This document shows, piece after piece, positions 1-4,349 of a stretch of DNA of 23,245 bases; position 1 is the first letter of the stretch; each line of letters begins with the position of its first letter. Origin of the DNA: an uncultured Flavobacterium sp. (GTDB lineage: Bacteria > Bacteroidota > Bacteroidia > Flavobacteriales > Flavobacteriaceae); assembly GCF_946481155.1 (NCBI RefSeq), contig NZ_CAMLMK010000043.1, positions 1-23,245 on the forward strand, read 5' to 3'. A model generated the notes under the pieces. The model was not told where the DNA came from. It was given only the letters and a program-made list of their open reading frames with translations, and ran no database searches. Position numbers and translations under genes: made by a program.

Positions 1-2
1 AA

Positions 3-746
3 TTAATTACTATAAACTTGAGAATATTTATTAATAGTTACTTGAGAATTAAACGGATCAAAATCTAAAAAAAACTCTATTGGTAAAAATTGTTCACTAA
101 ATTTTTGTTGTGCAGGATTAAACCATTTTACTTTAATTAAATCAGTTGATGCCAATCTTTTTACTTTTCCATTACCGTAAAACAAATCATTGTAAACTTC
201 TTTTTTAAAACCACAAGCAACAAAGTCTGGAGTTATATAATTTACGACATATTGCCTTGTTTTCTTTTTTATAATTTCATCATTAGTACTGGCAGGATCT
301 TCTACCACTTCCGTCTTTGTAGATTCTCTTTTCTTTAAAACTTCAAGTTTTTTAGTTTTAAAATACAAAACTATTCCATAATTGTAATCAATCTTTTTAG
401 GATAGTTGGTTACTTCAGTTATTACATCAGTATACCCTTCAGGCAATTCTTCATCATCAAATTTTGCTATTTTAAGATTTGAAAAACTTTCCAAATTGCT
501 TTCATAAAGATGGGACTCTATAAATTCGCTTTTGTTATCATCAAAATAAACGCAAATATATTTTATAGCATCTGAAACCTGGTAGCCGGTTTGTTCGTCA
601 AATTGCTTCTTCTCTTTATTTTCAAAAACAACCTCCTTAACAATCATAATTGGCGGCACATATTTACCGTCACCTTTTATATAGAAATCATTTAATAATG
701 GATGTGTCTTAAAAGTAACTAAATCACCAACGCTAAATTTGTTCAT
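3..746 (-). CDS. Unrecognised protein with possible paired SH3-like segments
   Basis: Complete gene of 247 residues; the stop codon lies at the left edge of the window. I chose the ATG at 746 (MNKFSVGDLVTF...) because the 15 extra residues available from 791 are low-complexity and overlap the likely promoter. I do not recognise the family. The N-terminus (FSVGDLVTFKTHP, later KYICVYFDD) and the C-terminus (DLIKVKWFNPAQQKFSEQFLPIE) both resemble small SH3-like barrels of the YodC/DUF2158 kind, joined by a Lys/Glu-rich linker around residues 130-165; this is inference. No signal peptide or membrane segment is visible, so it is probably cytoplasmic. The gene is A+T-rich like the neighbouring reverse transcriptase and is transcribed away from it. 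It may be accessory cargo of the same island, but nothing shows that the two act together. Confidence 0.7.
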   Translation of the reverse strand: MNKFSVGDLVTFKTHPLLNDFYIKGDGKYVPPIMIVKEVVFENKEKKQFDEQTGYQVSDAIKYICVYFDDNKSEFIESHLYESNLESFSNLKIAKFDDEELPEGYTDVITEVTNYPKKIDYNYGIVLYFKTKKLEVLKKRESTKTEVVEDPASTNDEIIKKKTRQYVVNYITPDFVACGFKKEVYNDLFYGNGKVKRLASTDLIKVKWFNPAQQKFSEQFLPIEFFLDFDPFNSQVTINKYSQVYSN

Positions 747-760
747 CTTTTTTTTTCTGA

Positions 761-792
761 TAAATGTATAAAAAATATTACATTTACCCAAA
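761..792 (-). promoter_or_regulatory. Candidate Bacteroidota promoter for the gene at 3-746
   Basis: Read on the minus strand there is TTTG (789-792), a 20-nt spacer and TACATTTA (761-768). This fits the Bacteroidota -33/-7 pattern with the last G of TAnnTTTG replaced by A, a variant also seen upstream of the gene at 22161. The predicted leader would be very short. Confidence 0.4.
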
Positions 793-899
793 GTAAGGAA
801 GTTCTTTAGTTATTGAAGTAAAACATTTGTTGAACTATTGTGTTTTAAAAAAACCACTTAATCAAACCTTATAATAATAAGGGTTAATAAATATGTAGA

Positions 900-1205
900 T
901 TAAGAAAAATGTAATTGCAGTTATATCCTGCAAATATAGCGCTATAAATGCAGTATAGAACTGCAAGGTCAGTTTTCTACTTAACCATTTATACACTATA
1001 AGTATTATACGAATAATTTCTGTGAATGTTACAAACATCTGTAAGTTATTTAGGTTGATAATATTAGTCATAGCTTCCCAATAGGGGAAAGTCAATGTAA
1101 AAATCCAGCGGGAGTCGAGAACTCGGCTAATGGTTCGATTTCATTTGAAATGTTACGTTTTATTTCGCTTTAAATCCGCGCGAGAACTTCACTTACTTTA
1201 TTTTA
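900..1205 (+). ncRNA. Candidate structured ncRNA upstream of the DRT-like reverse transcriptase
   Basis: The 464-nt gap between the divergent genes holds dense potential RNA structure in the orientation of the reverse transcriptase. There is a 25+25-nt hairpin at 916-965, a small hairpin at 1029-1044 (TTACA/TGTAA), one at 1075-1089 (TTCCC/GGGAA), one at 1113-1128 (AGTCGAG/CTCGGCT, with one G-U pair) and, abutting it, one at 1129-1145 (5-bp stem, 7-nt loop TTCGATT). Several DRT systems, DRT2 among them, carry a templating ncRNA of a few hundred nt directly upstream of the RT gene, which is the position seen here. The ends are a guess: I found no clear promoter on this strand and no terminator before the RT start. 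Confidence 0.45.
916..965 (+). repeat. 50-nt near-perfect inverted repeat (hairpin)
   Basis: The arms 916-940 and 941-965 match in 21 of 25 positions when one is reverse-complemented. The blocks TGCAGTT, CTGCA and TATAGC pair exactly with AACTGCA, TGCAG and GCTATA; the other three pairs are the TAT/ATA block between the two mismatches. The centre TATAGCGCTATA is a perfect palindrome with no spacer, and one more pair (915 with 966) extends the base. There is no T-run after it, so it is not a terminator. It lies within the candidate ncRNA. Confidence 0.8.
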
Positions 1206-1210
1206 TATGC

Positions 1211-2719
1211 ATGAACAAACAAAAAGATTGGTTTAAAGACAGAGGATATCCACATTTTACTAATAAAACTCCATTATCGACAAAGAAAGATATTGAGAGA
1301 TATATTACTGATCCTAAAAAAATAGCACAACATTCCTTCCATCCTCTATTATTTAAAGAAATCAATCAACGTAGATATAAACTTTCAGATTTTAAGGGAG
1401 TATGTAGACGGTCCCATAAAAAACTAAAAGATGGAAGAACAGTATCAAATACTAAAATTAGACAGATACTTTACGCAAGTCACATAGATGCTCATGTTTA
1501 TTCATATTATGCCCAGAAAATTATAACTCCGAAATATGAAAAATATTTAAGTACGGACAAAAACCTTACAAAAAGTATTACTGCTTATCGTCAAATTTTA
1601 ACAGATGACAAAGTAAAGTTTAAAAACAATGTTCATTTTGCAAAGGATATTTTTGAAGAAATAAAAAGACGAGAATCATGTGTTGTCTTAGCATTTGATA
1701 TAGAAAACTTCTTCCCTACGTTAAATCATAAGATGTTAAAGCTAATTTGGGCGAAAATTTTAGGTCATAAAACTTTACCGAAAGACCACTATAATATCTT
1801 TAAGGCTGCGACTAGATTCTCATATGTGAAATTAAATGACTTGAAAACTAAAAATGGTCATTTTGATGAAAAAAAAATGTCCAAATTGCAGAAGAAAGGT
1901 AAACATACTTTTTTTGAGAATGCAAAAGAACTGGTAGATTCAGATATTATTATTCATAAAAATCAAAAAAGAAAAGATGGAAAACTGATAGGAATACCTC
2001 AAGGTTTACCTCTTAGTGCTTTATTAGCCAATATCTACATGTTACCATTTGACGAAGCAATTACAAAAGAATTAGTCGTTAAAGAAAACGTATTTTATAG
2101 AAGATATTCTGATGATATAATTGTAATATGTAATGAATCTGACGTTGGAAAAATAGAAAATTTTGTAAAAGATGAAATAGAAAAGATCAAACTGGTAATT
2201 TCTTTTGATAAAACTGAAAAAACACTTTTTAAAATCGAAAATAAAAGGTTACAATCATTTAAGATTGATGGTATAAATTTTATAAAAAATATCCCTTTAA
2301 ATTACTTAGGATTTGAATTCTATGGATATAGAACCTTAGTTAAATCAAAGAATTTAGCTACTTTTTATCGTGACATGAAAAATTCAGTAAGAAGAAAAGC
2401 TAAAAGAGTTGAAAAAAACAATGCGAAATACCTGTTAGATGAATCACCCATTTTTAAAAGAAAAATATACAGACTTTACACCTTCAAAGGTGTTGAATCC
2501 AGATTATTAAATGCAAAAAAAGGTGAATTCATAAATAACAAATTGATTGTAAAGCCATTTCAAAAAAAATATAGAGGTAACTATTTAAAATATATTTATA
2601 GAGCATCTGAAGAAATGAATTCTCCAGAAATAAAAAGACAAGTTAGAAGACATTGGAAAATTCTGCAAAAAAAACTACATCAATATAAATTTTCTAACAT
2701 CAAAAACAAAAATGTTTAA
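1211..2719 (+). CDS. Defence-associated (DRT/UG-type) reverse transcriptase, probably DRT2-like
   Basis: RNA-directed DNA polymerase of 502 residues, predicted cytoplasmic. Visible RT motifs are VLAFDIENFF with the first catalytic Asp at about residue 163, GIPQGLPLSALLANIYM (Gln near 264), the catalytic box YSDD at 299-302, and YLGFEFYG (Gly near 367). A basic, probably helical C-terminal segment of about 130 residues follows. There is no maturase or HNH domain and no group II intron around it, which argues against an intron RT. The N-terminal pattern (DWFKDRGYPHF, ASHIDAHVYSYYAQK) and the single-gene layout behind a structured leader recall DRT2 (UG2) proteins; that class assignment is from memory and not firm. 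I chose the ATG at 1211 because the 27-residue extension from 1130 would start inside a leader hairpin and does not resemble RT sequence. It is markedly more A+T-rich than the core genes downstream. Expected role: cDNA synthesis from the upstream ncRNA in anti-phage defence. Confidence 0.85.
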   Translation: MNKQKDWFKDRGYPHFTNKTPLSTKKDIERYITDPKKIAQHSFHPLLFKEINQRRYKLSDFKGVCRRSHKKLKDGRTVSNTKIRQILYASHIDAHVYSYYAQKIITPKYEKYLSTDKNLTKSITAYRQILTDDKVKFKNNVHFAKDIFEEIKRRESCVVLAFDIENFFPTLNHKMLKLIWAKILGHKTLPKDHYNIFKAATRFSYVKLNDLKTKNGHFDEKKMSKLQKKGKHTFFENAKELVDSDIIIHKNQKRKDGKLIGIPQGLPLSALLANIYMLPFDEAITKELVVKENVFYRRYSDDIIVICNESDVGKIENFVKDEIEKIKLVISFDKTEKTLFKIENKRLQSFKIDGINFIKNIPLNYLGFEFYGYRTLVKSKNLATFYRDMKNSVRRKAKRVEKNNAKYLLDESPIFKRKIYRLYTFKGVESRLLNAKKGEFINNKLIVKPFQKKYRGNYLKYIYRASEEMNSPEIKRQVRRHWKILQKKLHQYKFSNIKNKNV

Positions 2720-2918
2720 AAATGTGAAGGAAATTATTTGCTAAGTTTTTCCTGCTACGCAAAGTCTCCCAACTGTGTTCACATAATATAGCATCGACAC
2801 CCGCAATCCACAATCCCTCCAAACTATACTGCTCCTCATTAACCCCTTGCAAAAATTTCACAAACACCAACCCCAGTAATACCCCATTCCGTTTTAAATT
2901 AAACCCTTCTTTAGTAAT
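2700..2918 (-). pseudogene. Possible decayed ORF at the island boundary
   Basis: Between the RT stop and rmuC, one minus-strand frame is open for 72 codons between stop codons at 2919-2921 and 2700-2702. Its first part reads like real protein (NGVLLGLVFVKFLQGV, then EGLWIAGVDAILCEHSWETL), and the DNA there is richer in G+C than the RT gene. It has no ATG start, and its last codons run into the RT 3' end. I read it as the remnant of a gene cut or replaced when the RT island arrived. The family is not recognised. A chance open frame cannot be excluded at this length. Confidence 0.3.
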
Positions 2919-2978
2919 TCAGTGCCTAACCAATATTATTTTTTGCTACATTTACGCTATACAATAAACCGCATATCC

Positions 2979-4349
2979 ATGTCACAAACCCTCTTAGTAT
3001 TAGCCGCATTTATCATTGCCCTCGGAATAGGTATTTTCATCGGGAAAGTCCTGTTTTCTGCGAAATCACAGTCGGAGAAATCCGGTCTGGAAGAGCGCAT
3101 CAATGGTCTTTTATCCCAAATCGAACAAACCAAACAGCAGTTCCAGAACGAACGTTTAAACTTCGAAAAACAAGTACAGATTGTCAATGCCGAAAAGGAA
3201 GCCATCCGCACCGAGAAGGAAGCCTTAGCCATTCAGTTAACCAAAAAGGAAGTCGATTTCGAGAACCTATGGGAACGCAATAAAGAACAAAAGGAAGAAG
3301 TCAGCCAGCTACAGGAGAAATTCACCAAAGAATTCGAGAACCTGGCCAATAAGATCTTAGAAGAGAAAACCAATAAATTTACCGAGCAGAACAAGGAAAA
3401 CCTGAAAAACATCCTTTCCCCGCTACAGGATAAGATACAGCTATTCGAAAAGAAAGTCGAAGATACCCACAAGGAAAGCATCGACTACCATGCCGCCCTA
3501 CGCCAGCAAATATTAGGCCTCCGCGAAATGAACGAACAGATGAGCAAGGAAACCCTAAACCTAACCAAAGCCCTGAAAGGCGACAGCAAGATGCAGGGGA
3601 ACTGGGGCGAGCTTATCCTAGAGCGCGTTCTGGAGAAATCCGGACTGGAGAAAGGCCGCGAATATGAAGTACAGCAGAGTTTCGTTACCGAAGAAGGCTC
3701 CCGCGTCCAACCCGACGTAGTAATCAACCTTCCGGACGGAAAGAAAATGATAGTCGATTCCAAAGTATCGCTAACCGCCTACGAACGCTTAGTCAATGAG
3801 GAAGATGATGAGATGAAAGCATCTTATCTGAAGGAACATGTCAATTCCATCAGACGTCATGTAGAGCAATTAGGCGCGAAAAACTATCAGGATCTCTACC
3901 AGATAGAAAGCCCCGATTTCGTGCTTTTATTCATCCCGATAGAACCTGCCTTCGCTTTAGCTTTAAACGAAGATAACGCCCTATACAACAAAGCCTTCGA
4001 GAAGAATATCGTAATCGTAACACCTTCTACGCTTTTGGCGACCCTGCGCACCATCGACAGCATGTGGGCCAACCAGAAACAGCAGGAGAACGCCTATGAG
4101 ATTGCAAGACAGGCCGGTGCATTATATGACAAGTTTGAAGGTTTCATCGCAGATTTAGTCAAGATCGGCAAGAAGATGGACGAAGCGAAAAGCGACTACG
4201 GCAATGCCATGAACAAGCTCGTAGAAGGCAAAGGAAACCTCATCACCAGCGTAGAAAAACTAAAAAAGATGGGCGCCAAAGCCAAAAAAGCCCTGCCCGA
4301 AAACATATTGGCCCGCGCCATAGAAAGCGAGCACAACGCAGAAAATTAA
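2979..4349 (+). CDS. rmuC: DNA recombination protein RmuC
   Basis: 456 residues. One N-terminal membrane segment (about residues 4-25, TLLVLAAFIIALGIGIFIGKVLF) is followed by a long Glu/Lys-rich coiled coil (about 35-185) and the RmuC nuclease-like domain, which begins near residue 206 with QGNWGELILERVLEKSGL and continues with VQPDVVINLPDGKKMIVDSKVS, where the conserved Asp and Lys residues of the PD-(D/E)xK-like core lie. Known RmuC proteins limit inversions and rearrangements at repeats; the biochemistry is poorly defined. I chose the ATG at 2979 because the 19-residue extension upstream is not typical. It leads an apparent operon, with the next gene starting 6 nt after its stop codon. It marks the return to core genome after the RT island. 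Confidence 0.93.
   Translation: MSQTLLVLAAFIIALGIGIFIGKVLFSAKSQSEKSGLEERINGLLSQIEQTKQQFQNERLNFEKQVQIVNAEKEAIRTEKEALAIQLTKKEVDFENLWERNKEQKEEVSQLQEKFTKEFENLANKILEEKTNKFTEQNKENLKNILSPLQDKIQLFEKKVEDTHKESIDYHAALRQQILGLREMNEQMSKETLNLTKALKGDSKMQGNWGELILERVLEKSGLEKGREYEVQQSFVTEEGSRVQPDVVINLPDGKKMIVDSKVSLTAYERLVNEEDDEMKASYLKEHVNSIRRHVEQLGAKNYQDLYQIESPDFVLLFIPIEPAFALALNEDNALYNKAFEKNIVIVTPSTLLATLRTIDSMWANQKQQENAYEIARQAGALYDKFEGFIADLVKIGKKMDEAKSDYGNAMNKLVEGKGNLITSVEKLKKMGAKAKKALPENILARAIESEHNAEN

Follow-up and report, generated by a model that had tools for sequence, protein, structure and literature searches.

The left end of the window, by which we mean the whole 23,245-nt stretch of uncultured Flavobacterium sp. 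DNA analysed here, most probably (at roughly 0.8) carries a divergent, three-part DRT2-type anti-phage system, composed of a structured non-coding RNA (ncRNA), a Drt2-family reverse transcriptase (RT) and a YodC-like partner, with a product, Neo, that would be encoded by a concatemer. This reading draws on the family of the RT, covariation in the RNA, template limits set by comparison among loci, the length and open frame of the repeat unit, and the linkage of the YodC gene. The original prediction had described a stand-alone RT behind a structured leader, starting at position 900 and without a protein partner; that part must be revised, since the divergent frame at 6-746 (- strand) matches a catalogued RT-associated family, a homologue of it accompanies the RT in 25/25 loci, and the system extends left to about position 3.

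The RT (1211..2719, + strand, 502 aa) is a member of the Drt2 family and represents a divergent branch of it. Its open reading frame is intact, ends at 2719, and begins at the ATG at 1211, which the alignment of homologues identifies as the conserved start; the motifs DIENFF, IPQG, YSDD and YLGFEF agree with the complete enzyme originally described. The YSDD box, already contrasted there with the YCDD of KpDRT2 from Klebsiella pneumoniae, is invariant in the 30/30 aligned homologues (the window's RT included), whereas the active site of KpDRT2 is indeed given as YCDD in the accessible text of PMC12039810. The PADLOC Drt2 scores of the RT are 457.6 and 321.8 bits, compared with 76.1 for the best non-Drt2 family, and KpDRT2 chains in the PDB match it by sequence at about 1e-52, colinearly over query residues 3-460. 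A predicted structure (pLDDT 71) finds the DRT2 entry 9c0i as its best PDB fold match (E 2.8e-25; next entry 1.2e-9). Against the NCBIfam Drt2 equivalog model the RT scores 374.6 bits and narrowly misses the cut-off of 390; we therefore use the label "divergent DRT2-type" rather than that of a strict equivalog. The suggested DRT2-like placement is thus upheld by the leading PADLOC score and the KpDRT2 fold match, and the suspicion of a divergent branch by the missed NCBIfam cut-off, the length of 502 aa and the YSDD box. This placement is based on profile and fold scores rather than on an RT tree, and by these scores the protein does not fall with group II intron or DGR RTs. Two other assignments were rejected at the profile level: group_II_RT_mat reaches 61.2 against a curated cut-off of 300, and retron_St85_RT 65.4 against 235. 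A protein search scored 7996 candidates and returned 1777 homologues, the named ones among the 120 listed including Flavobacterium, Lutibacter, Algibacter and Polaribacter. An Rfam scan of the window yielded zero matches at gathering scores, viral contigs searched with the RT alignment yielded zero relatives, and none was found among plasmids searched with window positions 1-3200; tblastn with the RT returned 30 plasmid and 3 phage records, all below 60% identity.

The partner gene (3..746, - strand; ORF 6-746) is divergent from the RT and encodes 247 aa, with its ATG at 746 and its stop at 3-5. Residues 2-232 of the 247 match the PADLOC profile RTasYodC (PDLC03806) at 1.6e-85, and Pfam leaves a sub-threshold DUF2158 trace (E 0.06). 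A possible -7 box for this gene, TACATTTA, was read by eye at 761..768 (- strand), agreeing with TAnnTTTG at 5/6 positions. Across the 25 distinct loci compared (the window and 24 others at an RT identity of 53% or more, designated by L numbers, the duplicates L003 and L004 being left out), a homologue adjoins the RT in every one, divergently in 20/25 and co-directionally upstream in 5/25 (L036 and L013-L016); because the orientation has changed in the latter, the pairing has survived rearrangement. In a sample of 397 genomes, where the best candidates per genome were scored (up to seven for the partner, up to three for the RT), the partner (E<=1e-10) occurs in exactly 13 genomes, and these are the 13 with an RT match at E <1e-190; a partner homologue without an RT of this branch was not found among those candidates, and the 14 genomes with distant Drt2 relatives only gave no YodC match. 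YodC is, in short, strictly linked to the DRT-type RT of this branch. PADLOC already holds an RTasYodC model, which records the association without assigning a function, so the co-occurrence seen here tests a catalogued association; the link between RTasYodC and the GTA-edged neo branch described below comes from the present analysis. The predicted partner model (pLDDT 82) consists mostly of beta strands arranged in two halves; 0/362 PDB fold matches reach E 0.001, and a search of plasmids with the partner protein found none. One locus, L040, is a decaying copy, with a broken yodC and an RT full of stops; its neo unit is still open.

Between the divergent ATG (746) and the ATG of the RT (1211) lies a 464-nt gap, as originally measured, and the proposal that it holds an upstream templating ncRNA gains support from leader alignments, which show two kept ends around a hypervariable middle, and from covariation at both ends. 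The leader is a structured ncRNA, which we predict to span about 791-1199 (+ strand, ~409 nt). Its ends are set by the terminal helix (arms ~790-806 and 1183-1199) and by a possible -7 box, TACATTTA (TAnnTTTA), at 779..786 (+ strand), read by eye with the leader alignment. Such a box sits at -12 to -5 relative to the transcription start in the accessible text of PMC9723704, which places the predicted start near 791, where the terminal helix begins. Pairing on the same arms is the best end-to-end pairing in each of the 25 loci, the best being taken per locus and without a shuffle control. The region 791-1200 folds better than 100/100 dinucleotide shuffles (z -3.69), in keeping with the density of hairpins first noted.

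Compensatory changes among homologues were present in both conserved parts, the check that had been proposed for this region. Two helices make up the 5' part, and their 13 pairs are 97.5% paired and show 78 two-sided changes: a hairpin at 840..855 (+ strand; 840-846 with 850-855, 5/6 pairs changed on both sides), and a pre-template stem at 857..904 (+ strand; 857-863 with 898-904, 99.4% paired, two-sided changes in 5/7 pairs) that ends 6 nt before the template and may act as a stop for the RT. Among 500 shuffles, the covariation score of the whole 5' part was reached by 0, its number of pairs changed on both sides by 1 and its number of pair types by 44. The 3' scaffold (1108..1179, + strand), recognised by covariation, contains a long-range helix (1108-1112 with 1175-1179) and a hairpin (1113-1128); its 11 pairs have 95.3% of cells paired and 31 changed on both sides, and the corresponding shuffle counts are 0, 1 and 26. 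Both sets of helices were tested on the alignments in which they were found, which favours them; sliding the partners by 1-3 columns lowers the pairing to 19-55%.

The limits of the template were sought by scanning all offset pairs around two anchors in 19 loci with RT identity >60%. A single offset pair has strongly shared triplets: GTA-1, the 5' edge of the template (911..913, + strand), and GTA-2, the predicted jump target after it (1097..1099, + strand). The window reads GTA/GTA, and the two triplets are identical in 14/19 loci, against 6/19 for the next best pair. GTA-2 is GTA in 18/19 loci and GTT in the remaining one; one of the 19 has GTT at both edges, and in five (L033, L035, L037, L039 and L011) the edges differ, with GAA or GTT against GTA. 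The same scan was ambiguous in three distant Drt2 groups, and in a five-locus control group of this branch the GTA pair was absent from the best six; a few related loci thus cannot reveal the edges, and the evidence for them rests on the 19. In a further control, the 420 nt upstream of a Psychrobacter plasmid gene annotated drt2, one ACA/ACA unit of 105 nt is open on the antisense strand and closed on the sense strand, a weak control because the tested range of 100-140 nt contains a single ACA pair and because units of KpDRT2 relatives are longer, at 111-129 nt in the accessible text of PMC12039810.

These edges delimit a putative template and neo unit of 186 nt (911..1096, - strand), whose antisense frame runs through 62 codons without a stop and continues from one copy into the next, a property absent from the original prediction. 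The candidate start codon lies at 1036..1038 (- strand, offset 58 after the junction), and a second in-frame ATG at 1069..1071 (- strand, offset 25). Among the 19 loci with RT identity >60%, the unit is 183-192 nt long and a multiple of 3 in 18, and each of these 18 has exactly one antisense frame free of stops with the junction included, compared with 2/18 on the sense strand. Six further loci (RT identity 53-57%, edges picked by eye) have units of 171-186 nt, all divisible by 3, each with one open antisense frame, the sense strand being open as well in 1/6. Over all 25 loci, units therefore measure 171-192 nt, 24/25 are divisible by 3 with a single endless antisense concatemer frame, and the sense strand is open in 3/25; as the loci are related, these counts do not represent independent events. 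The exception, L041, has a closed unit of 182 nt, the sole one not divisible by 3, next to open RT and YodC frames; its neo may be dead, or its edge may be another one. When the 18 units were shuffled with dinucleotides preserved, an open frame arose in 0.2-3.2% of trials (0.9% for the window's unit). Of all the evidence that the mechanism is of the DRT2 type, this never-ending antisense frame is the strongest.

Among pairs of the 18 units, seven are at least 47% identical in encoded residues and the others lower. Substitutions between related units fall on all codon positions, the second showing a mild deficit at most, and this gives no clear sign of purifying selection on Neo residues. Hydrophobic residues make up 58.4% of the open frame, against 48.9% of the other antisense frames (24 units). 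Comparison of these sequences supports selection for an open, hydrophobic frame rather than for a fixed sequence. This fits the KpDRT2 relatives, whose template is likewise poorly conserved and biased towards hydrophobic residues (accessible text of PMC12039810).

Concatenation would also assemble a promoter. In the window, a TTG at 931..933 (- strand), the would-be -33 element, comes to lie 22 nt from a weak -7 box, TGACTTTC, at 1087..1094 (- strand, 4/6 positions) only once copies are joined. Flavobacterial promoters carry TTG at about this distance. Taken alone, the TGACTTTC box is no better than chance, as 58% of windows in the same unit score as high. Elsewhere, the start of the repeat (cDNA sense) has an exact TAnnTTTG in L035, L036, L001 and L037, and 5/6 of it at +1 or +2 in L039, L034, L010, L011 and L012. 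With the -7 positions fixed after inspection of the boxes, 11/25 loci have a TTG that precedes the box by 19-22 nt on the far side of the junction, compared with a background of 9.4%. Seven of the nine loci with a good box (5-6 of 6) also have this TTG, that is 7/25 loci, and these appear to possess a good Bacteroidota-type promoter across the repeat junction. Support for a junction promoter accordingly extends to part of the branch; for the window's copy, whose own version is weak, such a promoter is uncertain.

Two other explanations of the open frame deserve consideration. It could be an ordinary small linear gene, or an antisense transcript overlapping the ncRNA, rather than concatemer-borne, and the window's frame is indeed open in the linear genome as well, for 77 codons from a TTG and with an internal ATG. 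However, in the linear genome a stop follows beyond GTA-1 at distances that differ among loci, and the phase of the frame relative to the junction varies (0, 1 and 2 in 9, 11 and 4 loci) although 24/25 loci keep the distance between the edges at a multiple of 3, which a repeated unit explains better than a linear gene does. Moreover, the TTG at 19-22 nt from the -7 position, present in those 11/25 concatemers, is found in 0/25 linear copies. We consider a linear gene or transcript improbable. Still less probable is that the RT makes another product, as DRT9 and DRT10 do with their homopolymer or short repeats, and that the open frame is a by-product: those systems likewise pair an RT with an ncRNA in the accessible accounts, and DRT9 entries do appear in the fold list, but DRT2 is far ahead of DRT9 in both fold (2.8e-25 against 1.4e-9) and PADLOC profile (457.6 against 47.2 bits), and a by-product would not account for units that combine an open frame with a length divisible by 3.

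The third alternative concerns the partner and is bound up with the genomic setting. In 15/25 loci, most of them compared over 1.5 kb of flank, rmuC directly follows the RT (2719-4349 in the window, and in L001, L002, L005-L012, L032, L033, L040 and L041), and this shared position would fit YodC being a mere passenger of a common insertion site, outside the mechanism. Yet the pairing also holds in the other 10 loci and through the change of orientation in L036 and L013-L016, and the 397 genomes, with up to seven of the best candidates scored in each, gave no YodC homologue without this RT. A passenger role is hence unlikely, though we give it somewhat more weight than either explanation of the frame. 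The GC content of yodC (27.7%), leader (28.9%) and RT (26.6%) is lower than that of rmuC (45.2%) and carB (42.3%), consistent with the A+T-rich surroundings first described, and the whole resembles a defence module that was acquired and sits at a preferred place in the chromosome. carB shares the contig of the RT in 6 of the 13 genomes, about 5-10 kb away (13 kb in the window), and the rmuC/carB region is possibly an insertion hotspot for this module in Flavobacteriaceae. One genome, G056, harbours on a single contig the YodC-type locus L013 and a distant Drt2 relative, L031, ~47 kb apart.

Returning to the three-part DRT2-type system, we propose the following mechanism, in which jumping, second-strand synthesis, transcription, Neo toxicity, defence and the whole of YodC's role are inferred. 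The RT would hold the ncRNA and copy the 186-nt template up to GTA-1, 6 nt beyond the pre-template stem; the end of the cDNA would then re-pair with GTA-2, and copying would restart, producing tandem repeats. Once double-stranded, the junction would join the TTG of one repeat to the -7 box of the next, and the resulting promoter would drive an antisense message without stop codons, encoding Neo, a hydrophobic 62-residue repeat protein that would stop the infected cell. YodC would serve this system alone as an accessory, and its likeliest role would be that of an adaptor, either sensing infection or licensing the RT complex. We give even odds to a more specific scheme, a flavobacterial three-part endless-gene system in which an end-paired ncRNA yields GTA-jumping cDNA, neo has out-of-order promoter pieces of the Bacteroidota type, and YodC is obligate, sensing infection, licensing cDNA or second-strand synthesis, or restraining Neo. 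If this is true, YodC would be a protein part that the accessible accounts of the one-RT KpDRT2 system do not describe.

Compared with KpDRT2, as documented in the accessible text of PMC12039810 and PMC11100668, the locus shares the colinear Drt2 RT, an upstream ncRNA with kept ends and a template of low conservation, short identical triplets at the template edges with a unit divisible by 3, an apparently endless antisense frame rich in hydrophobic residues, and putative promoter pieces that are out of order in the genome. The differences lie in the particulars: the edges are GTA/GTA here and ACA/ACA in KpDRT2, the same principle in different letters; the unit measures 171-192 nt rather than the 111-129 nt of KpDRT2 relatives; the ncRNA is ~409 nt with pairing ends, against 280; the RT has 502 aa, against 425; the putative -7 box is of the Bacteroidota type, in contrast to TATAAT; and a YodC gene is strictly linked, whereas KpDRT2 consists of one RT and its ncRNA. 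Most sequence comparisons thus suggest a likeness to KpDRT2, from which the locus departs in lacking the ACA motif, in scoring below the NCBIfam cut-off and in the weakness of its own junction promoter. Within the same bacterial family, the distant Drt2 relatives L017-L031 (RT 28-36% identical to the window's) likewise have, upstream of a Drt2-related RT, long stretches whose antisense strand is free of stops. In five of these loci (L023 and L025-L028, RT 32-34% identical), ATTC marks either edge of a 129-141-nt stretch whose length is a multiple of 3 and whose antisense strand has an open frame in 5/5; this is possibly another edge motif, although the scan is ambiguous there. In a search of the mostly open-access literature, neither neo in Bacteroidota nor YodC as a part of DRT2 was found described, and a prior description is possible. 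Overall, the locus looks like a DRT2-type system of a divergent branch, its neo design apparently intact, that is set apart by the letters of its edges, the greater length of its unit and a strictly linked YodC.

The branch would show the logic of DRT2 written in other letters: the edge triplet is not the same, the unit is longer and the promoter is that of another phylum. It thereby sets what seem to be the needs of the mechanism, namely matching edges, a length divisible by 3 and an endless frame, apart from the particulars of the Klebsiella relatives, and it adds a strictly linked protein to the DRT2 picture. The locus seems to add a new branch to an anti-virus defence already known, its function being inferred; an endless gene appears to be concealed in the reverse strand of the ncRNA, and it would come into being only through repeated copying of the RNA.
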